This document shows, piece after piece, positions 7,131 through 26,335 of a DNA stretch of 64,000 nt; position 1 is the stretch's first letter; each line of letters starts with the position of its first letter. A program made the position numbers and the translations under genes. Below the pieces are notes generated by a model. The model did not search any database and was not told where the DNA came from. It worked only from the letters and a program-made list of their open reading frames with translations. Origin of the DNA: Beverwykella pulmonaria (taxonomy: Eukaryota; Ascomycota; Dothideomycetes; Pleosporales; Melanommataceae); assembly GCA_001599595.1 (NCBI GenBank), contig BCHH01000005.1:2372678-2436677 (forward strand). The letters are read 5' to 3'.

Positions 7131-8567
7131 ATGAAGTCCTTTCATCCAAGTTGCACTCTTCCACAGGGTCCTCAGAATTACATTGCTTCTGGAAATATAC
7201 GAGGCACCCTTGATATTGTCTGGGGCTGTCTGAGCATCATATTGCTCTGCACATGGACGATTCAACACCTCAACGTCCCCCAACAGATATTCGCACGAAC
7301 TAGAGGAGAGAGCGCTCGACTACGGCTACTAAGATTTTTTCAAAAGACGAAATGGATGATTCTCACCATATTTGCACCAGAAATTATAACTGGCAAGGCG
7401 CTCGCCGATCTGATCTCGGCCTGGCGTACAAGTGGACAAATGCAAATCTTTAAGGAAGCGAGGGAGGGGGACACAAAATGGACTTTGAAGCACTCATTCT
7501 TCGCCGATATGGGCGGCTTCGAAATTCATTTTCCTCAAGGCACGCCCTTACCTCCTCGAACAGACGAGATGGAAGAGCTCCGACGGGACACACAGCCAAC
7601 AGCTACCGATCAAAAGTATATAAAATCCATTTCGAGACTTTGCAGATACGTCCCTTGGTCTGCAGGGATCGTTCCATGGAGCGAAGATGCGACAAATACT
7701 CATGCCGTTATCAAAGCCTTTGAGCTTCTCAAGATTGAAGACTTGAAGTTGCCATTCTTAGGCGATATATGGCGCGTTAATGCCAGCGTACTCCAAGGCA
7801 ACATCTGGGTCCTTGACGCCAACCAGCTCCGCGCTGCTCGGGATTTCGGCATTATAGAAGCGCTCCCTGATATCCGAAAAGAGGTCTTAAATGATCAAAG
7901 CAAAAGCGACGGCCTTGTTAAGTTTCTCGCAATTGTACAGATATTATGGCTTATAGTTCAATTGATAGTCAGAAAGATTCGGATCCTCCCTTCATCTCAG
8001 CTCGAGGTGGTCACGATGGCCTATGCAATATGTTCCATTTTCACTTGGGCTATCGTTTTCGAGAAACCTCAAGGCATTAGCGTGCCATACACGCTCAAGG
8101 CCTCTCGCTATCCCACCCCCGGTGAAATAGTCAGCCTCGCAGCTGAGGGGCCATTCCCATGGTATTGGTATGTTCGAGGGCATCGATTCCCTAATCATTG
8201 CTTTCATTACTCGGGACCGCAGTGGAAATATTTTTGGGGGCAACTGCTTGGAACGGGTATCGGAGCGGTTGTGTTCGGTTCGGTTCACCTACTCGCGTGG
8301 AATTTTGTCTTCCCAGTACCAATAGAGCGTTTGCTGTGGCGCATCGCTGCTTTGCTCACAGTTACTATCCCCATTGCAGCGGAAGCTGTCTTTGCGACTC
8401 ATCGTACACCTATATGGGAAATATGTTGGAGGGCTTTGCCGGTTTTGGTGTTCATATATATTCTCACGAGGCTTGCCGTCCTCGTCGAAGTATTTCGAAC
8501 GCTATACTTTTTGCCACCGGAGGCCTACCTGTCCACATGGTCCACGGACATACCTCACTTGAATTGA
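7131..8567 (+). CDS. Fungal multi-pass integral membrane protein, function unknown
   Basis: Single exon of 478 residues starting at the ATG at 7131; an upstream in-frame GTG at 7086 is less credible. After about 20 residues comes GNIRGTLDIVWGCLSIILLC, then TWTIQHLNVP, an arrangement I know from a large lineage-expanded family of uncharacterised filamentous-fungal membrane proteins. A hydrophilic middle (about residues 130-280) precedes a C-terminal half with several hydrophobic spans, such as FLAIVQILWLIVQLIV, AYAICSIFTWAIVF, IAALLTVTIPIAAEAVF and ALPVLVFIYILTRLAVLVEV. No catalytic motif is visible. These proteins are often near HET genes and transposons, but no function is established. Confidence 0.8.
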   Translation: MKSFHPSCTLPQGPQNYIASGNIRGTLDIVWGCLSIILLCTWTIQHLNVPQQIFARTRGESARLRLLRFFQKTKWMILTIFAPEIITGKALADLISAWRTSGQMQIFKEAREGDTKWTLKHSFFADMGGFEIHFPQGTPLPPRTDEMEELRRDTQPTATDQKYIKSISRLCRYVPWSAGIVPWSEDATNTHAVIKAFELLKIEDLKLPFLGDIWRVNASVLQGNIWVLDANQLRAARDFGIIEALPDIRKEVLNDQSKSDGLVKFLAIVQILWLIVQLIVRKIRILPSSQLEVVTMAYAICSIFTWAIVFEKPQGISVPYTLKASRYPTPGEIVSLAAEGPFPWYWYVRGHRFPNHCFHYSGPQWKYFWGQLLGTGIGAVVFGSVHLLAWNFVFPVPIERLLWRIAALLTVTIPIAAEAVFATHRTPIWEICWRALPVLVFIYILTRLAVLVEVFRTLYFLPPEAYLSTWSTDIPHLN

Positions 8568-9001
8568 CGGTAATGCAAGTGAATTGAACACGACGGCGGG
8601 TAAAGAGAAGAGCTGAACCAGATGAGGCAATTACAAATTGCAGATAGGGCAGACGTGTATTTTGCACTAGTAATTGACGTTTATAAGCCACCCGATTTTA
8701 AGCTTCCTAGCAGGTCTGACCATTAGTGTATTGCAGTTTCCAGTGGCCGAAATGTATTATGTATTTTTATGTTATGGGGCTTTTTTAGTGATTTCGATTG
8801 AGGTGTAAGTTGACGTCCATCCCCGCCGCCTTCCATAATAAGGATATGCTTGCCTTGAGCGTCTTAGTCTCGCTGCAACCCTGCTCCCATCGTCTTGCAG
8901 TCCTTGATTAAAAGTTCCTAAAGTTTTAGAAGAACCAACCGTTTTCCCTGAGTCGAACAATTCCTAACACAACACAAACAGGCCTAGCCTTTCCTGCCCA
9001 A

Positions 9002-16980: not shown

Positions 16981-17484
16981 TAGAGCTGTAGGGGACGACG
17001 GGGAAAGACGATGATGAAGTCGATGATGAAGTGGACTATCGCCGATGAGTTACGATTAGAGGTCAACGGTTGGGTGGCTAGTTGGGTTGGTGGTTTGATA
17101 TGGTTCATTGATAGATAGGAGTCGAGGATTCTTGGTGGGTTGTATGATTGGTGATGGATGACATCAATGGTGTAAGTCGACTCGGTCTTTGAAAGATGAG
17201 GGAATCTTTGAGACTTTAAGATGTATAGATACCCTTTCCTTGTCTACGTTTTTGTGTTGTTTTATTCCATAGCTCGCTTTTGATTGCACCCATGGCTTTC
17301 TCTTCCCTATCTGTTTCCTGAACAACTTGTATTTAGTGGATAATGCAAAACATAGCTCGAATAAGGAAATGCTGAAAGGGGGGGCTGTGCAATCTCTGAG
17401 GCCAATCATGAGGCAGCCTCCAGCACCTTGAACATCAACTCGAAGCTTGCTAGCTTCAAGAAGGCTCATACCTCCCGAGTATCC

Positions 17485-19671
17485 ATGACGAGCTTATCCT
17501 TCAGCATGCCATCCAACCTTGAACTTTGCGCTCCATGTCAGGTCGCCATTCGCAGCGATCGCATCGCCTCTATAACTGGCTCCAACCCCACTCCCTCAAC
17601 ATCTAAGAAACACACACAGGAGAAGTGGTCCTGCGCGCTATGCACCACGATCTTCGCGTTCCACAAACGAAGGAGAAAAGAGAAAGTGTCCATTACGTTG
17701 GAATGGCTGGAAATGCAATTGACCCGCACCGTATTGAAAATTTATCCGACGTTATCGACTAAGCCGAGATATCTGGAAGAGGCGGGGGAGCGAGGGGATA
17801 CGGAACGTCAGGCGGCAGAAGATGCGGCGTTGTCGCCGATTGGCGATTTATCGGACATCATTCTACTTTCAAGAGAAATTGAGTTTTCGGAGACGGGGTT
17901 TGAGGATGAGATACCGGGGAACGATGTTGTAAGAGTTGTGCCGCTTCTCAAGATCGATACGACACTTGTGCAGCGATGGCTTTCCTACTGCGAGGAGAAC
18001 CACGCCACTTGTCGACATAACCCCGACATAAAAACCGAGGTTGAGCTTCTGCTCATCGACGTGCACCGTCGTTGTCTCGTGCGGACTCAATCTACGGCTC
18101 GATACCTCGCGCTGTCATATGTATGGGGGTCTGTCAATCAACTCGAGCTCACTGAAGTCCAAATTGAGGACCTGGAGAAGGAAAACGCGCTCGATAATTA
18201 TTGGGCCCAGATCTCAACAGTGCTAAAAGACGCTATCACGTTCACTAAGGGGGTAGGGGAACATTATCTCTGGGCGGACACATTGTGCATTATCCACGAC
18301 AGTGCTCAACGGTACGCGGACATCAAGCGCATGAACGCCATCTTCTCAAACGCGCTCTGCACGCTCATAGCCGTCGACGCAGTTGACGCCACAAGCCGCC
18401 TTCCCGGCGTAACCACTCAACGAGAAATCCCCCACTTGGCCACAAACGCCGGATTGTGGCTCGGAAAGCGGCGCTCTGAACTTGCGAGTGTATTTCGCGA
18501 TTCAAAATACGAGAAAAGAGCGTGGACGTTGCAAGAACGACTGCTGTCGAGACGAAGACTGTATTTTACAAACGAGCAGGTATGGTTTCACTGTCGGACG
18601 AAGCTGTGGAGCGAGGATCGGTATGAAGTTTATGCACAGGAGGCGGATTGGTTTAGGATTTATCCGTCGTTGAATTGGAATCCGCAAAGTCTCCCTGTCG
18701 ACGCTGAGGACAAATTCGAGACGTACATCCAGTTCGTGCACCAATACACAAGCCGCGAGCTTACATTCAATTCCGATCGTCTAAACGCATTCTGTGGGAT
18801 CTCAAATGCGTTAGGTGAGATATGGGGGTGGGTGATGCCATGTGGGATGCCGGCACCGGTATTAGATCGCGCGCTGCTGTGGGTTTCGAGTAGGCAGTTT
18901 CCGAAGAGAGTTGAGGCGGAAGGATATCTGCCGAGTTGGTCTTGGGCGGGGTGGACGGGGAGTGTGCATTATCGGATGGTGAAGAAGAGGAGGTGCATCA
19001 GTTGTTTGAGGGGGTTTGCGATGATGGATAAGGAGGGGATTAGAATGTTTGGAATCTTGACATTCGATAACACGGGGGGCACCGGCGTGGCTTTAGACTC
19101 GGAAGATGACACAAACAGCAGAGCGCAGAAAGAGTGGGCGGAAAAGCTCACTCGTCTAAACATGTCCAATATCCTCCTCTTCAGCACTGAAACGTTACCC
19201 GCGCACCACTTCAGACTGTTCTCCACGCGTCTCGCCATGAGTCCAAAGTATGCGAACGAAGGCGTACCTGATGACAAAATCCGGCGGATTCTCGATCCAG
19301 AAGGAAAGGCTTGTGGTATCTTGGCTTATAGCGGCATACTGCCTCCAGACCTGCAGGATGTGGCCTTGACATCGACGTCGGCATCAAATACTTGGCACAA
19401 GTATCAGTATATCCTCATCTCCAAGTCCGAAGATGGCCCGTTTTTGGAGATGCTCGATGATGAGGTTACTAATGGCGAAGAGGACGAAGAAGCGTATGTT
19501 AATGTCAATGTATATGATGGGAAATATAAGAGGATGGAGGGATTGACGTGTAATGTTATGCTAGTGATATGGAGAGATGAGGGGTTTGCGGAGAGACTTG
19601 CAGTGGGACAGATACATGGGAGTGCGTGGGAGGGGGGAGAACCGGTAGTGAAGAGGATTATTCTAGGGTAG
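17485..19671 (+). CDS. HET-domain (heterokaryon incompatibility) protein
   Basis: Single exon of 728 residues from the ATG at 17485; the frame is open further upstream only to a TTG. The HET domain lies at about residues 205-350: ARYLALSYVWGS, then AITFTKGVGEHYLWADTLCIIHD, then IFSNALCTLIAVDA. Downstream family landmarks follow: RAWTLQERLLSRRRLYFTNEQ, DRLNAFCGISNALG and LPSWSWAGW. Two Cys pairs near the N-terminus (CAPC and CALC) recur in this class. HET proteins trigger non-self recognition and programmed cell death in ascomycetes, but most genomic copies are uncharacterised. The partner is unknown. It marks the passage from the clu1 block into accessory DNA. Confidence 0.92.
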   Translation: MTSLSFSMPSNLELCAPCQVAIRSDRIASITGSNPTPSTSKKHTQEKWSCALCTTIFAFHKRRRKEKVSITLEWLEMQLTRTVLKIYPTLSTKPRYLEEAGERGDTERQAAEDAALSPIGDLSDIILLSREIEFSETGFEDEIPGNDVVRVVPLLKIDTTLVQRWLSYCEENHATCRHNPDIKTEVELLLIDVHRRCLVRTQSTARYLALSYVWGSVNQLELTEVQIEDLEKENALDNYWAQISTVLKDAITFTKGVGEHYLWADTLCIIHDSAQRYADIKRMNAIFSNALCTLIAVDAVDATSRLPGVTTQREIPHLATNAGLWLGKRRSELASVFRDSKYEKRAWTLQERLLSRRRLYFTNEQVWFHCRTKLWSEDRYEVYAQEADWFRIYPSLNWNPQSLPVDAEDKFETYIQFVHQYTSRELTFNSDRLNAFCGISNALGEIWGWVMPCGMPAPVLDRALLWVSSRQFPKRVEAEGYLPSWSWAGWTGSVHYRMVKKRRCISCLRGFAMMDKEGIRMFGILTFDNTGGTGVALDSEDDTNSRAQKEWAEKLTRLNMSNILLFSTETLPAHHFRLFSTRLAMSPKYANEGVPDDKIRRILDPEGKACGILAYSGILPPDLQDVALTSTSASNTWHKYQYILISKSEDGPFLEMLDDEVTNGEEDEEAYVNVNVYDGKYKRMEGLTCNVMLVIWRDEGFAERLAVGQIHGSAWEGGEPVVKRIILG

Positions 19672-22333
19672 ATATTGTTCGTTTTTATCAACATCCAAAC
19701 TTGGACAGCGGTAGTTAATGTTCCTCAGAGTATCAAGAATCTGCGTAAGGTATTTTTATCTTGTCTAGCGAGGCAGAACAGCAGTTTGAAAACTATGTTC
19801 CTTTCATACCTTTCCCTAGTGAGTGCGAAGCTGTGGATAAAGTGTTCCACACAAAGAGAGAGAATTGATGTTCTCGTGCGTTACGCATTGCAAGTCTCTC
19901 CTTTTCTTATCCTCCTGGACTTCCTGTTCTATATAATAATCCGTGCAGCATCCTCTTGGCTCTTGACCCATAGGTGAAAATACTTAACAAAGGGGAGAAT
20001 CCTTAGGCTCTCGCGAACGTATATGAGCGCAGCGTTTGATGGTCATATACAGCTTATTCCAACCAGCCCTGATCAGCTCGACGATATTGAATATCAAGAA
20101 GAGATAAGAGACAACAAGGAGTGGAAATGTCGCAGCGAAATAGACCCACATGCTCACATGGCTTCACTCGAACTCTTTGACATTCATTCCAAATAGATCA
20201 GCAACGAACGTGCGAGGACGAAGACAAAATCAAGGCGGATTAACCGAGCCACTCCCTCTTGCCACACCATAGCCCGCTGATTTTCTCGAATATTTATATT
20301 CGTCATAATAATACTGAGGCCGTGCATACATCGTCTTTCTAGTGTCTCTACTTGTTGAAGTAGATAGCTTAAATCTAGCTCGGGCTACTCTCTCGCCTTT
20401 TTGCCTTTTTCATTTGAATCTTCTGGTTGCTGCCGGCAATTTGTTGAGGTGGCCAACATTAACAAGGATATGGCCGGAGCGGTTTGGCAAGCCTCTCTGT
20501 CTGTGGTGGCGACTTTCTAGGTTGGTCATGCTGCTCAGCGGGGGAAGGATATGCTTCACTAGGCCACCATATGCACATTCAGCTCATCAGCCTCTTCCAA
20601 CCGCTCTTGATCCTGTAGGCTGATGTAAGGTTGGCCATGCTGATTAGCGGGTGCTGGATCCATTATCTTGCAACGGCCACTGTGCACCATTTGTTAGGCA
20701 GCAGCCTCACAATCTGTCATAGTTGTCAACAATCATGCTGATCGTTTGATTGTTGACGATTCTGATTGTTAGTGCCCTTTGTGTGTGTATTATCCAGAAA
20801 TGGACACTTGACGCAAGCGCGGTGTCTTCAGGCAGTTAACCCTTGATTCGCTCAATAGCATCGTCATATGCCTTATCAAGCCGTATAAAAAGTACGGCAC
20901 GAATAGAAGTTGCCATCGACTTTATCTTTTTGCGAGTTGGTGTGCTTTCTGGTAAGAAGCACGCTAGATCTTCGCCACCAGGCTAAAGTCTTCTTGGGAT
21001 CCAAAGCCCTTAAGACAATCCTCGCCCTATTTGACAGAACTGAAGTCACAAGACAGTTGCCAAGGCATGCTTAGCTCTGTGTTAGCTACCTGGGAGTTAT
21101 TGCTAGTAAGTTAAAGCTCTATAAGCACTGTAACTCGTTAATAGTCAAGATTAGTAAGGATAGAGTCGTTATCCTCGAAGATGTTGAACCTATGGCCGAA
21201 GGTGCGACGACCAGTGCGTTCCACGTCCAATTTAGACTAAAGCGGCCTGCGCTAACTCGATAGAGGTATGTTTAAAGATATCCTGTCGTTAAAGCTTAAA
21301 AATATAGCGTTGCGATAAAGTTGTGTTAAGGAACATGTGCGAACGTTCACAGCTAACGAGGTGCGTGCGGAGATATTGACCCCGCAAGCTCTGACGCTCC
21401 CACAATGTTGGTGTACTCCAAACTTACTTAATTGGATTTGGCTACTGCCTATCTAAATCTAGCTTCCAAGTAGAGATGATCCGTGGAGATCTATCTATGA
21501 GAACTATTGGTGCAATCGGGACTGCGGTCTTTTGAACCGGCCGCTGGAGCGGTCTGTTTGAGTGGTCACCTGATCGACCCAGCTTGATGGTAACGCTTTT
21601 GGCCTGGGGTGGTGTACTACGGTACCGAAGTGTGGCACTGATATCTATGGCTTTACCAAGCATCGTTCGCACATGCTCTCAGCGTGGGTTATCCATCGCC
21701 GGCTGGCAAGTGCAACGGCGCTTATACGCTTTGTGAGGAAAATTCCGGCTTGGCAGGCAGTTCAGTCAACCCTAGAATGCTTAAATCTTGTAATCAAAGC
21801 TAATATAGCGCCTTAATATTGGTGGCCTGACCTCATGGCATCTTGAGTAGCCATGGTAGAGACTTCAGTAAATGTGAAAAACGCTTAAATAGACGAAGTC
21901 AAGGATCACATGTGAGACCTATCTATAGTATATAAGTACTAAACTTCTAAAGTTAACATCTGCACCTATTATCCTACTGTCGCGTTTGCTTAAACAGTAC
22001 TTCTCGAAACTAGATTCTTTATTCCTGACACTACCTAACAGTCTGTTTGGTCTAATACCTAGTTCAAGATCTACTTGGATCCGGTGAAACATAACCAAAA
22101 CCCTGCGTTGAGCTCAACGTGAGTATTACGCTGTACCCACTCACTATTACTACGACCTTTGCGGGATTGAGTTGTTTGTCAGCGAATGACGTTTTGCAGT
22201 AACTTTCGCAGTCTCTCAAACCATACTCTGAGACCAGCACGCTAGAGTTGCGTCACGATGCGATTGTGAATTTAATCTGCTCTTACTTTTACTCATTCAT
22301 CACATCGCAGTAACAGTAGAAAGGAATCCAGTT
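19672..22333. other. Long gene-poor stretch
   Basis: About 2.7 kb with no gene I can defend. Short frames, such as 20342-20623 and 21442-21672 on the minus strand, have no family resemblance. Near 21939 TATATAAG-like sequence and at 22118 a GTGAGT donor, with a matching CAG at 22310, could be the promoter and a 5' UTR intron of the orphan ORF that follows; this is conjecture. Confidence 0.4.
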
Positions 22334-22741
22334 ATGCTTGAAACTTTGCAAACCTTAGCTTATCGCCGGGTGCGTCGCCTATCTAACGATAAACCAATGT
22401 CTTGTTTCACTCGCTACAAAGACAACCGTAGCTTGGAATGCCTTTTGCGTGTAGATAGTTATTACCTAATTATTAGCAAACTAACCTGTGCAAAACCGAC
22501 TAAGAGACGGCACAATCCATTTAAATCCCGTGCGTTCGGATTCATCAGTACCAACGTAGGGATCCATTGCATGGGCTCCGCAGAAATCGCATCAGATTGC
22601 TGTGACATTATTGCACAGCCGCACTCACACCCTTGCAACTTCCATTCTGGCTACGCACATGCTCATTGCGTTGCCTCTTTACTTGTAGCTAAAATTGGCG
22701 AGCGTCCAGGCCGCGTAAGGCCAGTAATCTCGAACATTTAG
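22334..22741 (+). CDS. Orphan ORF, 135 residues, function unknown
   Basis: ATG-initiated frame ending TAG at 22741. The product is basic and rich in Cys and His in its C-terminal half (GIHCMGSAEIASDCCDII, then HPCNFHSGYAHAHC), with no signal peptide and no domain I recognise. Arginine is mostly CGT/CGC and the tract looks compositionally different from the AT-rich flanks. A purine-rich GAAAGGAA lies 8 bases before the ATG, which is probably chance in a fungus. It stands alone between a gene-poor stretch and the microexon gene. It could be a lineage-specific gene, a relic of transferred DNA, or a chance ORF. Confidence 0.35.
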   Translation: MLETLQTLAYRRVRRLSNDKPMSCFTRYKDNRSLECLLRVDSYYLIISKLTCAKPTKRRHNPFKSRAFGFISTNVGIHCMGSAEIASDCCDIIAQPHSHPCNFHSGYAHAHCVASLLVAKIGERPGRVRPVISNI

Positions 22742-22901
22742 CTGAGGGGTAGAGGTTGCATGAGCGAGATCAGCTTTCTTTAGTGGGGATAGTGACTATC
22801 CTATGATCACGAAGATTCGATCATAAAGGGCAATCCTTGCATCGTACTATACCAAATGAGGATCTGAATGCAGCGCAGAACGACGGTCAAGCTAGGCAAA
22901 T

Positions 22902-23014
22902 CTATATAAGTAAAGCAAGTCTTCATTTCACGAAGTAGACATCGAACCATTTAAACATCTACACCCTTATTTTATTACCGGAAATCCCTCTGTACTGAAC
23001 ATACTTCTATTAAC
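22902..23014 (+). promoter_or_regulatory. TATA box and leader of the microexon gene
   Basis: CTATATAAG at 22902-22910 lies about 105 bases before the ATG at 23015. The leader between them is CA- and pyrimidine-rich, without upstream ATG codons in the last 50 bases, as in expressed fungal genes. Confidence 0.5.
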
Positions 23015-24796
23015 ATGAAATTCTTGGTGCTCTTTGGCATGCTTATGCCCACTTTGATAGTTGCGCTCCCGGATTCTCGCGACTCGGGAGGCGTCCAAGT
23101 CAAAAAAGAGCTTGAGGGTCGGCAGGTACGTTCACAAAAACATTTCTCACCTGCATATTGTGAGCTTGCTAACTGCTGGTCGTGGTGCAGGATGTAAGTG
23201 TATTCAATTGCCCTTGCTTGAAAGGCTGGTTACAGTACTTAAGCAAGTTGCTAACTACTGGTCGTGTTGCAGTGTGTAAGTGAATCCAATTCCCTAACTT
23301 GACAAGCTGATTAGGCAAAATACTAATTGATGATTGGGGTGCAGATTGTAAGTGGTTCCTGGGCCCTTGCCCGACGGTCTGATTGGACAACTTGCTAATT
23401 GCTGGTTGTGATGCAGGGTGTAAGTGTATTTAACTGATCTTGCTTGACAAGTTGATTAAACAACCTGCTAACTGCTGGTTGTGGTATAGGATGTGAGTAG
23501 ATCAATTTCCCTTGCTTGACAGATTGGTTAGGCAACTTGCTAACTACTGGTTGCGATGCAGCAAGTAAGTGGATATAACTGCTCTTGCTAAACAGGCTGA
23601 TAAGGTAATTTGCTAATTGGTGGTTTGGGTGTAGTGTGTGAGTGGATCTTGTGGCCTTGTTTAACACGCTGATTAGGCAATTTGCTAACTGCCAGTGGTG
23701 GTGCAGTATGTAAGTGGATTCAATTATCCTTGCTTAAATAGCTGATTAGAGAACTTGCTAACTGCTGGTCATGGTGCAGGGAGTAAGTGAATTCAATTGC
23801 CCTTGCTTGACAGGCTGATTATGAAAGTTGCGAACTGATCGTTGTGGTGTAGAGAGTAAGTAGATCCAATGCCCTTGCGTGATGGACTGATAGACGACTT
23901 GCTAACTGCTGGTTGTGTTGCAGTGTGTAAGTGGATCTTGTGCCCTTGCTTAACTGGTTGATAGGGCAAGTTGCTAACTACTGGTTGTGGTACAGCCTGT
24001 AAGTAGATCTAATATCCTTTCTTGACTGGCTAATTAGACGACTTGCTAACTGCTAGTCGTGGTGCAGCTTGTAAGTAGATTCAATTGCTCTTGCTTGACA
24101 GGCTGATTAAACAACTTGCCAACTGCTGGTTGTGGTATAGGATGTGAGTAGATCAATTGCCTTTGCTTGACAGATTAATTAGGCAATTTGCTAACTGCTG
24201 GTTGCGATGCAGCAAGTAAGTGGGTTTGACTGCCCCTGCTTGACAGGCTGATTAAGTAATTTGCTAACTGCTGGTCGTGGTGCAGTATGTGAGTGGATTC
24301 AATTGCCCTAGCTTGGCTGGCTGATTAGATAACTTGCTAACTGCTGGTCGTGGTACAGGGAGTAAGTAGATTTAATTGCCCTTGCTTGACAGGTTGATTA
24401 GGCAACTTTCTAACTGCTGGTTGTGGTACAGAATGTAAGTGGATCTAGTTCCCTTGCACAACGGACTAATTAGACAACTTGCTAAATACTGGTCGTGTTG
24501 TAGTGTGTAAGTAGATTTAATTGTTCTCGCTTAACAGACTAATTGAGCAAGCTGCTAACTGCTAGTTGTGGTGTAGTGTGTAAGTGGGACCAATGGCCTT
24601 GCTTGATTAGCTAATCAAACAATTTGCTAACTGCTGGTCGTGGTGCAGGGAGTAAGTGTATTCAATTGCCCTAGCTTGATAGACTGATTAGACAACTTGC
24701 TAACTTCTGGTTGTAATGCAGTGCGTAAGTTAATCCTGTGCTCTTGTATAACAGGATATAGAGCTTTAAAACTGCTCCTAACTAACTATGTAGTAA
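23015..24796 (+). CDS. Secreted cysteine-rich peptide precursor encoded by 24 exons, 22 of them a single codon
   Basis: Exon 1 is 23015..23125 (37 codons). It encodes a signal peptide (MKFLVLFGMLMPTLIVALP) and a pro-region with a KK pair that could be a Kex2-type site, and ends in phase 0 before GTACGT. Then come 22 exons of exactly 3 nt, beginning at 23191, 23273, 23345, 23417, 23490, 23562, 23635, 23707, 23780, 23853, 23924, 23996, 24068, 24141, 24213, 24286, 24359, 24432, 24504, 24577, 24649 and 24722. Intron 23 (24725..24793) ends CTAACTAACTATGTAG, and the next codon is TAA at 24794. Cysteine codons are microexons 2, 7, 11, 19, 20 and 22, spacing C-x4-C-x3-C-x7-C-C-x-C. The precursor is 59 residues. 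Secretion and three disulfides are inferred; function is unknown and transcript evidence is needed. Confidence 0.8.
23126..24793 (+). repeat. Tandem array of 23 related spliceosomal introns (72-73 bp repeat units)
   Basis: Each unit is one intron plus a 3-nt exon. Intron lengths in order: 65, 79, 69, 69, 70, 69, 70, 69, 70, 70, 68, 69, 69, 70, 69, 70, 70, 70, 69, 70, 69, 70, 69. Donors are GTACGT once, otherwise GTAAGT or GTGAGT. Most contain a shared core resembling CTTGCTTGACAGGCTGATTA, then TTGCTAACTGCTGG (the branch site), then a variable GTGGTGCAG-like acceptor. The last intron keeps length, donor and acceptor, but its core has diverged. Units sharing a codon share their acceptor end: GAT units 5 and 14 end GTGGTATAG, CAA units 6 and 15 end TTGCGATGCAG, and several TGT units end GTGTTGCAG or GTGTTGTAG. 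This points to duplication of intron-plus-codon cassettes. Confidence 0.9.
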
Positions 24797-25266
24797 TTGG
24801 AAAGAAGTGGCTAACGCAGTTATGGATTCTGAGAGTCCTGTCCGTCCAAGTAGGTTTCAGCTCGGGCCGGGTAGAACGGGTTCCTCTCATTACTACGACC
24901 GACTCGAGAAGCATTCCAATCAATTTGTTAACAGTTTCTCGTTCAAGTGCTGCTATAGGTGTTCGTTTGTACGCTCTAGCTATCGGCGGAGGCATTGGTT
25001 TTGGTCCTTTTGTATGGTGTAGAGACGCAAGGAAAGACAACAGATTTTAGTCTTTTTATACCAATACAAGAAGTCTGCTCGCTACTGTCAACAAACCCTT
25101 CCACTAGAGCATATGGCCTAGCCATGGCAAGTTATATATTTATGTTGATCTCCAGCTCTCTAAGAAATAGAGAGAATAAAAAAGATATAGTAGAGCGAGG
25201 TATCATGTGTCGTGAAGGGTTGATAGAGTGATTGATGTTGGTTGAAGTAAACATAGAGGTGACTCA
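24797..25266. other. 3' flank of the microexon gene
   Basis: Probable 3' UTR and spacer. The repeat unit is not found past 24793, and I see no coding sequence. Confidence 0.4.
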
Positions 25267-26335
25267 TCATGTGACCCACGAGTCGACACGGCTGACTATA
25301 CAGCCGAAGGTGTGGCACAGCAAGGTACATGGACAGGCTAGACCTCGCAGAAGGCGACTTTGCAAGCGACCAAACAAAATATGCTTATTCTTGGGAAGTA
25401 ACACCCTACTCACGCTAAAGAGACGGCCGACCCGCTCATGAAGACTTTGTAGGGTTGTTGAAGAATGTATGATTTTTTGGCGTAGATTAGGGACAGACTT
25501 CAGTGTAGCTCTAATTGCCACTGGGGTGCATCGCTCGTCGAACGGCAACACCACAATCCCGCCTCTGCCAAACGTCACGCTATCCAAGCTCAGCAGCTTC
25601 TCCGCATCTTCATTCGTCGTCATTTAATCACTAGGTCTCAGTGGTCCAGGCCATCTCATCGTGCACACCTACACTCCCGTTTCCGTCCAAAGCGCTCCAT
25701 GGCCAATCTGCGTACCTTTCCACGCTCCATGTCCATCGCCAGCAGCATCTCAACCCAGTCCACCTTGATGCATATCATTTAGGTCTACTCAGTCTCCCGC
25801 CAGGGATGTGCGGTTGGAGCCATTTAGCTGTCGTGTGTTTGAACGCTGCCTCTCTGTCCTTGTCGGCGGAGAACTCATGCTGTTATTCGCTCGCCACACT
25901 CAGAAGTTTGTTGGCCGTCGCTCGCTGATTCCGTGTTGGCCGCCTTCTCTACCACTCCTTCTCCCGCACTGCTAACGTCGATCACCAGCTGTCGAACGTA
26001 TTCCTTGCCCGATATTCCCGCACTCGTCGATCGCGACAACGTCGCGCCTAACCCTACCAGACGTCCACTGCTAGCGACTAACGCCTATGTCCGTGCTGAT
26101 GGGGAGCTGCACTCGGAGCCATCCGATCGTTTCTTGCAGTTTGGCATTCTGGCTCTTGAGGTACCGCTGTTTGGCTTGATTGATGTGAAGTGCTCTCGAT
26201 AGTGCTGTTCTGGTTCGTGATGTTGCTCTGCTGTGCTATTATCTCTTCAAGGTTCGCAACGAGCTGTTTTGTGTCATCTAGCTCGGTGCTTCGTCCTCCG
26301 CGTTCCAGTGAGATGGAAACCTGCCCGGTGGGAAA
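25267..26335 (-). pseudogene. Retroelement remnant, LINE/Tad-like ORF1 (gag-like) fragments
   Basis: On the minus strand between about 26335 and 26090, coiled-coil protein sequence appears in two frames: ELDDTKQLVANLEEIIAQQS, then after a frameshift QRYLKSQNAKLQETIGWLRV. This heptad-rich pattern is typical of the ORF1 N-terminus of fungal Tad-type LINEs. Stops interrupt it downstream. At 25623-25267 an ATG-started frame of 118 codons (LLSLDSVTFGRGGIVVLPFD) may be another part of the same or another retroelement. No reverse transcriptase is present, so the copy is truncated and dead. The roughly 420 bases between here and 26756 hold nothing further that I can identify. Confidence 0.4.

Follow-up and report, generated by a model that had tools for sequence, protein, structure and literature searches.

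Can a coding sequence be spliced together from exons of one codon each? The question is raised by a stretch of 64,000 nucleotides (nt) of the Beverwykella pulmonaria genome (the window, C5:2372678-2436677 within 45.6 Mb on 31 contigs), in which an exon of 37 codons is followed by an alternation of 23 intron-like units and 22 segments, each of exactly 3 nt; the last acceptor ends at 24793, and the stop codon TAA comes immediately after it, at 24794-24796. This layout, first claimed in an earlier note on the same DNA, was borne out to the base. The note's further proposal, that each 3-nt exon supplies one residue of the mature peptide, is supported by the sequence: there are six further such genes, and their codons, 422 with those of the window gene, include no stop. 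Very probably, these genes form a family for secreted peptides in which the mature peptide would be spliced together codon by codon, and which would evolve by duplication of intron plus codon. This reading draws on the structure itself, its repetition in seven genes, the absence of stops, the concentration of variation in the codons, and the duplication of units together with their codons; from the same sequences we infer that the genes would be transcribed, all of their introns spliced, and their products secreted and functional as peptides.

The array in the window

Exon 1 of the window gene translates as MKFLVLFGMLMPTLIVALPDSRDSGGVQVKKELEGRQ. The array that follows contains a tandem repeat of period 73 (20.5 copies, 23244-24730), and a plain pattern scan for [CT]AG-NNN-GT[AG]AGT finds 22 sites in succession, with starts from 23188 (first) to 24719 (last). 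The 23 introns are of 69 nt (10), 70 nt (10), 65, 68, and 79 nt, so that the spacing of 72-73 nt originally described holds for most units, not for all of them. Read in order, the 22 triplets give DCIGDQCYGRCPLDQYGNCCGC, reproducing the pattern C-x4-C-x3-C-x7-C-C-x-C given in the note; the enrichment for Cys, with six Cys codons, is moderate (P=0.012, column shuffles).

The finder used to model intron chains gives scores to donor, branch, and acceptor and a bonus to 3-nt exons; because of this bonus its behavior on shuffled sequence matters. As against the 22 real 3-nt exons, no chain had more than two in the dinucleotide-shuffled window (20 shuffles, both strands) or in the shuffled array region (200 shuffles, one strand), and none had more than one in the real window outside the array.

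A family of array genes

Is the window gene alone of its kind? A whole-genome DNA query with it gave 34 match rows, all within ten loci; when two other arrays served as queries, the 17 and 22 rows obtained lay in these ten loci as well. Twelve stretches around the matches were parsed with the chain finder, yielding at least seven array genes on five contigs and three decayed relics (Table 1); the genome search scores best candidates only, and ten loci is a lower bound. The proposal of one mature residue per 3-nt exon predicted relatives with a signal-peptide exon followed by tandem introns of ~70 nt at a spacing of ~72 nt, and six more genes of this kind are present in the same genome. The total is 422 one-codon exons in seven genes: 422/423 internal exons are of 3 nt and one is of 9 nt, all multiples of three and all phase 0 in the gene models. 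With exon 1 counted, one-codon exons supply more than half of the residues in five of the seven genes; the share is 22/59 in the window gene and 55/~117 in C15(+).

The layout is common to all seven: an open exon 1 whose N-terminus looks hydrophobic by eye, a phase-0 donor, and a run of 3-nt exons. L-x-x-R-Q stands at or near the end of exon 1 in six genes (LETRD in C2), and the stop abuts the last acceptor in six, C15(+) reading CCA TAG instead. Exon 1 of the window gene is 46-58% identical to those of its paralogues (five of six aligned), and recovered that of C2 at 60% identity in a whole-genome protein search. Stretches downstream of the arrays are 78-93% identical among the seven genes, and the 3' region of the window gene matches downstream of all six others, including stretches of 83-93% identity immediately 3' of the arrays at C15 (33163), C1 (2435448), and C3 (190130). 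Upstream similarity is confined to subsets, namely the three genes with Leu/Thr-rich products (C3(+), C3(-), and C15(-)), and C1 with the window gene and C2; 22876-22940, around the candidate TATATAA of the window gene, has a 79% blastn match to sequence upstream of C1.

No relatives of exon 1 without arrays were found in the genome by two exon-1 queries, which recovered only five of the seven genes; short queries therefore miss members. An exact family pattern (one was used) had no match in viral contigs, as expected for a fungus. Run at its loosest setting, the finder also listed one chance chain, of two 3-nt exons, on the opposite strand of the C3(+) array.

Two of the arrays have local irregularities. 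That of C15(-) contains 1,090 N (fetched stretch L036:6570-7659), and its middle codons are missing. In C2, the unit at G000:C2:2668190-2668261 lacks an AG where the acceptor usually lies, and the family's single 9-nt exon results from the earlier AG that the model takes; the C2 product is uncertain at this point.

Are the triplets codons?

None of the 422 one-codon exons is a stop, as against 21.4 expected from the base composition of the window (P=3e-10) and 6.0 if composition is taken for each gene and position separately (log10 P=-2.7); the P value from column shuffles within genes is 0.0005. For Cys clusters, column shuffles give P=0.012 and 0.0016. Variation is concentrated in the codons: positions 1 and 2 have an entropy of 1.91 bits each, versus a maximum of 1.73 in any column of 304 introns of 69 nt, and the variable codon columns sit between AG and GT columns of near-0 entropy. 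The third base is T in 305/422 and G in 9/422. Codons for Lys, Gln, and Glu cannot end in T; in one-codon exons they are A-ending in 26/27 cases, versus 211/619 in four ordinary open reading frames (ORFs), where 408/619 are G-ending (P=3e-11 for the difference in A-ending). A-ending codons would be expected here if an AG inside the exon competed with the true acceptor.

These results bear on the possibility that the array is excised as one or a few long introns, with a product consisting of exon 1 only (37 residues), the triplets being spacer and the internal sites decoys or relays. The outer donor and acceptor are good, and their direct joining is in frame with an immediate stop. In C3(+), C3(-), and C15(-), moreover, the first junction has no exon, AG being directly followed by GT; relay-type sites therefore occur in the family, and removal across such a zero-length junction in one step or in two gives an identical mRNA. 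Spacer triplets should, however, contain stops, and should not give gene-specific compositions, a C-terminal FCA motif in three paralogues, Cys clusters, or the copying of codons with their units. Relay sites need no 3-nt exon, yet 422/423 internal segments have exactly this length (the three first junctions aside); the finder favors 3 nt, but in the window a simple pattern search yields the identical 22. Excision of whole arrays thus appears improbable.

A further alternative, in which the genes are decaying and their arrays no more than a tandem repeat, dead or non-coding, that arose from a duplicated intron, seems highly improbable. Three of the ten loci (C8, C11, and C18) are clearly decayed, one C2 unit lacks the AG at its usual acceptor place, and the introns have diverged mainly by transitions, as would be expected after repeat-induced point mutation. 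Unlike the three relics, however, the seven genes have kept a modeled donor, branch-like site, and acceptor for each unit, as well as frame and stop, over 22-88 units, and the lack of stops in 422 triplets also argues against a dead repeat, as does a downstream element common to all seven genes (upstream matches exist only in subsets).

Splicing of the arrays

If the mature peptides are assembled codon by codon, how might this be done? Exon 1 would encode a signal peptide and a short pro-segment, nearly every mature residue having a 3-nt, phase-0 exon of its own, and the spliceosome would remove 23 short, near-ideal introns from the window transcript and up to 89 modeled ones from others. The 431 modeled introns start with GTAAGT in 390 cases and end with YAG in 424; CTAAC occurs in the branch window of 351, and 310 measure 69 nt. 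An intron of ~69 nt would then be a self-contained unit (GTAAGT, CTAAC, YAG), and for this reason intron definition could work despite the tiny exons. The usual limits on exon size are steric, both exon ends needing recognition, and by the footprints of the spliceosome a 3-nt exon is too short to hold the factors of both splice sites simultaneously; neighboring introns would therefore have to be removed successively or alternately. The near-ideal donors would fit an exon side unable to help U1.

Introns after internal exons contain a phase-0 stop in 414/423 cases, and 339/423 are of a length divisible by three. Since the exons are multiples of three, retention of an intron would truncate the product, and skipping of an exon would keep the frame. 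Continuation of exon 1 by read-through was considered and dropped on account of the phase-0 stops.

What would be made if splicing were irregular? Many in-frame variants could arise by skipping of one-codon exons, an alternative that overlaps with codon-by-codon assembly and differs from it in the outcome of splicing. With phase-0 exons in multiples of three and near-identical donors and acceptors, any donor joined to any later acceptor stays in frame, and a retained intron nearly always meets a stop; schistosome micro-exon genes are described as yielding sets of similar proteins through alternative splicing (PMC4350168). Residue order has been kept, however, over 30 units in two paralogues, C3(+) and C15(-), and many skips would destroy the Cys framework of the window peptide. 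As the usual outcome, irregular splicing seems to us unlikely, if well worth bearing in mind. Presumably, either fidelity is very high, or skipped in-frame forms are common and are tolerated or used. The more far-reaching idea of a peptide-diversity machine, in which evolution uses single residues as modules, through duplication, deletion, and shuffling of units, and one gene could yield a large, graded set of in-frame secreted variants, perhaps regulated through splicing fidelity, is tentative and rather doubtful.

Should codon-by-codon assembly prove to be correct, it would mean that a fungal spliceosome, by intron definition, can build coding sequence through 22-88 one-codon exons in a row, and the arrays would be a natural system for the order and fidelity of splicing and for the limits of exon length. 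We know of no gene class in which splicing edits protein residue by residue.

Unit duplication and divergence

The unit of evolution in such genes would be an intron plus a codon: gain or loss of one 72-nt unit would add or remove exactly one residue in frame, making intron gain and protein growth a single event. Duplicated units do keep their codon in 14/17 non-redundant pairs with at least 92% identity of the flanking introns, and in five of the seven genes, reciprocal-best units within the gene agree in residue more often than under permutation. Units 5-6 (D, Q) of the window gene pair with units 14-15 (D, Q) at 85-89% identity, which suggests duplication of a block, with gain or loss of one Cys unit (CYG versus YG after D, Q); the units after D, Q are not reciprocal best matches, and for them block duplication is our reading of the residue order.

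The last 30 units of C3(+) and C15(-) are in colinear order, with 19/30 residues equal; outside the splice signals, the introns of this pair differ at 24.6% of sites and the exons at 19/90. Exons and introns change by different mutational spectra. Transitions and transversions number 36/46 in exons versus 1121/422 in introns over 102 non-redundant unit pairs (P=1e-7), which were selected by intron identity, so that spectra can be compared and rates cannot; in C3(+) and C15(-) the numbers are 6/13 for exons (tallied by eye) versus 227/84 for introns (P=3e-4).

Predicted products

The products look like different proteins across the family, to judge by their predicted sequences. Two are Cys-rich peptides, those of the window gene and C2, the latter (RDQCNNLQQVGEDCTRTAQCCRGYCRGRNGPRGSGICVVR) with six Cys and one CC pair. 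The inhibitor cystine knot, in knottin spacing, has six Cys of which the third and fourth are adjacent. The C1 product (EGGGRGGGRGHHGHHGG...GGEGGEGG...GFEGFGG) is rich in Gly, Glu, Arg, and His, and that of C15(+) in Gly, Ile, Thr, and Val, with five Cys. C3(+), C3(-), and C15(-) have Leu/Thr/Ile/Pro/Ala-rich paralogous products, two of which, with exon 1 counted in, show 50 and 59% identity to the first, with C-termini FCAAIAKILTCGA, FCALVAPLLKCA, and FCAAFAKIIKCGP, respectively, and the motif FCA common to all three.

Six of the seven spliced products (C15(-) was omitted for its gap) had no Pfam family above cut-off; for C2 there were sub-threshold matches to UPF0506 (E=0.021), Conotoxin (E=0.022), and Dickkopf_N (E=0.024). 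A copy of the C2 peptide in ordinary exons was not seen in the genome, in a type of search where an empty answer is uninformative. In Rfam, 22000-26000 gave a single match at chance level (E=0.97), and a known noncoding RNA cluster was dropped as a candidate for the array.

Evidence against codon-by-codon assembly

Several results weigh against the reading that we favor. In the window gene alone, the lack of stops in 22 codons is weak evidence (P=0.07, column shuffles), and the case becomes strong because the six paralogues exist; over the family, it is modest under pooled-column composition (4.0 expected, P=0.018). The preference for T at the third base is unlike the 19-22% T of four ordinary ORFs in the window, and G is scarce there in all codons, so that the A-ending of Lys, Gln, and Glu codons may reflect a broader exon-end rule. 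C2 and the window gene show no sharing of residues beyond permutation among their own reciprocal-best units, and between genes sharing beyond permutation (at the level of under 5%) is found in only 3/21 gene pairs. In C3(+) and C15(-), the exons are barely more conserved than the introns (78.9% versus 78.4%), and conservation of residues is not above that in a neutral simulation with an equal number of changes (P=0.16); the proposal that this pair demonstrates purifying selection was dropped for this reason. With 99% accuracy per intron, a gene with 89 introns would give only ~41% full-length product.

Homologues are also missing: the spliced C2 product had no candidate homologue in the protein collection, an alignment of the three Leu/Thr-rich paralogues gave 2164 candidates with none at E<=1, and two peptides, C2 included, had no match in PDB. 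The product queries of the protein collection were these two, those of the window gene, C1, and C15(+) not being among them. An SNW/Prp45 protein encoded in the window shares 93% identity with its counterpart in Melanomma pulvis-pyrius and 91% with the one in Pleomassaria siparia, both Pleosporales; the collection therefore contains relatives, yet both product queries were unmatched. The absence of protein homologues says little, because genes of this kind would probably be overlooked by gene finders, and a class of secreted fungal peptides may therefore go unseen in annotations.

Comparison with known systems

Judging from the accessible parts of the sources, the nearest analogues are schistosome micro-exon genes (MEGs) and aphid bicycle genes: both are fast-evolving, secreted or putatively so, and have many tiny exons. 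The coding region of MEGs consists mostly of very small symmetrical exons, with a raised ratio of nonsynonymous to synonymous substitution (dN/dS), and they are seemingly restricted to platyhelminths, according to the part of that report available to us (PMC4350168). Here, too, the exons are very small and their lengths multiples of three; unlike in MEGs, all internal exons but one are single codons, the introns of ~69 nt are tandem copies of one another, the runs reach 88, and the organism is a fungus. Bicycle genes, in the available part of their description, encode fast-evolving putative effectors and have many micro-exons, more than 100 in one “megacycle” gene (PMC9168663). Their internal exons are almost all phase 2, unlike the phase-0, one-codon exons between homologous tandem introns found here. 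In those portions, consecutive single-codon exons and tandemly homologous introns are described for neither class.

Other precedents concern the introns themselves. Introner-like elements are multiplied, invasive introns that enter genes in Dothideomycetes (PMC4457414, in part); array introns, unlike these, were matched only in the seven family genes and three relics by the three whole-genome queries, best candidates being scored. In stwintrons, known from Ascomycota, one intron interrupts a splice signal of another, and the two are spliced consecutively, as far as the accessible descriptions go. Adjacent short introns and the zero-length AG-GT junction that opens three of the family genes recall stwintrons and recursive sites; unlike in stwintrons, each modeled intron is complete (donor, branch-like site, and acceptor), with codons between. 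Two 3-nt exons are described, in the portion available, for duplicated lipS genes of Dactylellina haptotyla (PMC5639578); these are isolated cases, versus the arrays here. Intron gain by tandem genomic duplication has been described for one potato gene (PMC4974935, in part), and by analogy the arrays are likely to have grown by tandem copying of a segment that bears splice sites and becomes exon plus intron; the potato case, so far as that text goes, involves one duplication, whereas here there are tens of units of one codon each. Tandem one-codon exons were not described among the open-access literature matches listed, which does not establish their absence from print; if RNA confirms them, this would be a gene architecture for which no report was found.

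Table 1. Features of the window gene, and array genes and relics of the family (positions without a contig are those of the window).
Feature	Position	Strand	Remarks
Candidate TATA box, TATATAA	22903..22909	+	~106 nt 5' of ATG, read in sequence
Window gene	23015..24796	+	22 one-codon exons
Exon 1: ATG, signal-peptide-like stretch, pro-peptide ending ELEGRQ	23015..23125	+	111 nt, 37 codons, ends in phase 0
Array: 23 introns (GTRAGT/GTACGT donors, CTAAC-type branch, YAG acceptors), 22 exons of 3 nt between	23126..24793	+	
Single-codon exon 1, GAT (Asp)	23191..23193	+	pattern scan
Single-codon exon 2, TGT (Cys)	23273..23275	+	pattern scan
Single-codon exon 3, ATT (Ile)	23345..23347	+	pattern scan
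Single-codon exon 4, GGT (Gly)	23417..23419	+	pattern scan
Single-codon exon 5, GAT (Asp)	23490..23492	+	reciprocal best match: unit 14
Single-codon exon 6, CAA (Gln)	23562..23564	+	reciprocal best match: unit 15
Single-codon exon 7, TGT (Cys)	23635..23637	+	no counterpart in second D-Q-Y-G block
Single-codon exon 8, TAT (Tyr)	23707..23709	+	pattern scan
Single-codon exon 9, GGA (Gly)	23780..23782	+	pattern scan
Single-codon exon 10, AGA (Arg)	23853..23855	+	pattern scan
Single-codon exon 11, TGT (Cys)	23924..23926	+	pattern scan
Single-codon exon 12, CCT (Pro)	23996..23998	+	pattern scan
Single-codon exon 13, CTT (Leu)	24068..24070	+	pattern scan
Single-codon exon 14, GAT (Asp)	24141..24143	+	pattern scan
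Single-codon exon 15, CAA (Gln)	24213..24215	+	pattern scan
Single-codon exon 16, TAT (Tyr)	24286..24288	+	pattern scan
Single-codon exon 17, GGA (Gly)	24359..24361	+	pattern scan
Single-codon exon 18, AAT (Asn)	24432..24434	+	pattern scan
Single-codon exon 19, TGT (Cys)	24504..24506	+	pattern scan
Single-codon exon 20, TGT (Cys)	24577..24579	+	pattern scan
Single-codon exon 21, GGA (Gly)	24649..24651	+	pattern scan
Single-codon exon 22, TGC (Cys)	24722..24724	+	pattern scan
TAA stop, first codon of last exon	24794..24796	+	abuts last acceptor
3' region with family-conserved downstream element	24797..24900	+	element at 24851-24899 versus C1
C3(+) gene	C3:184.1-190.1k	+	80 one-codon exons
C3(-) gene	C3:174.7-168.1k	-	88 one-codon exons
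C1 gene	C1:2441.7-2435.6k	-	83 one-codon exons
C15(-) gene	C15:38.9-33.3k	-	57 one-codon exons (13 + 44 flanking N run)
C15(+) gene	C15:445.1-449.2k	+	55 one-codon exons
C2 gene	C2:2667.7-2670.5k	+	37 one-codon exons and one 9-nt exon
Relics C8, C11, C18			decayed copies, few units each

Surroundings of the arrays

Short elements of ~75-210 nt, ~73-95% identical and in both orientations, lie around the arrays (fetched stretches L031-L033, L036-L040, and L042); they resemble small transposable elements and might have aided the spread of the genes. Upstream of the C15(+) array is an open stretch of 375 codons that by eye is like a Tc1/mariner-type transposase. Near the decayed C18 copy (fetched stretch L042, ~8400-8720 (-)), an open frame appears by eye to encode an ordinary small secreted Cys-rich protein. 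In the window, an ORF of 135 codons (22334-22741 (+)) without a Pfam match lies upstream of the array; its counterpart upstream of the C1 array is 40% identical and broken by stops, and it has weaker matches in the upstream sequence of C8 and C15(+). It may be a duplicated neighbor gene or part of an extended upstream region. Farther upstream, ~3.3 kb from the window gene, is a gene for a heterokaryon-incompatibility (HET) domain protein (17428-19671 (+)).

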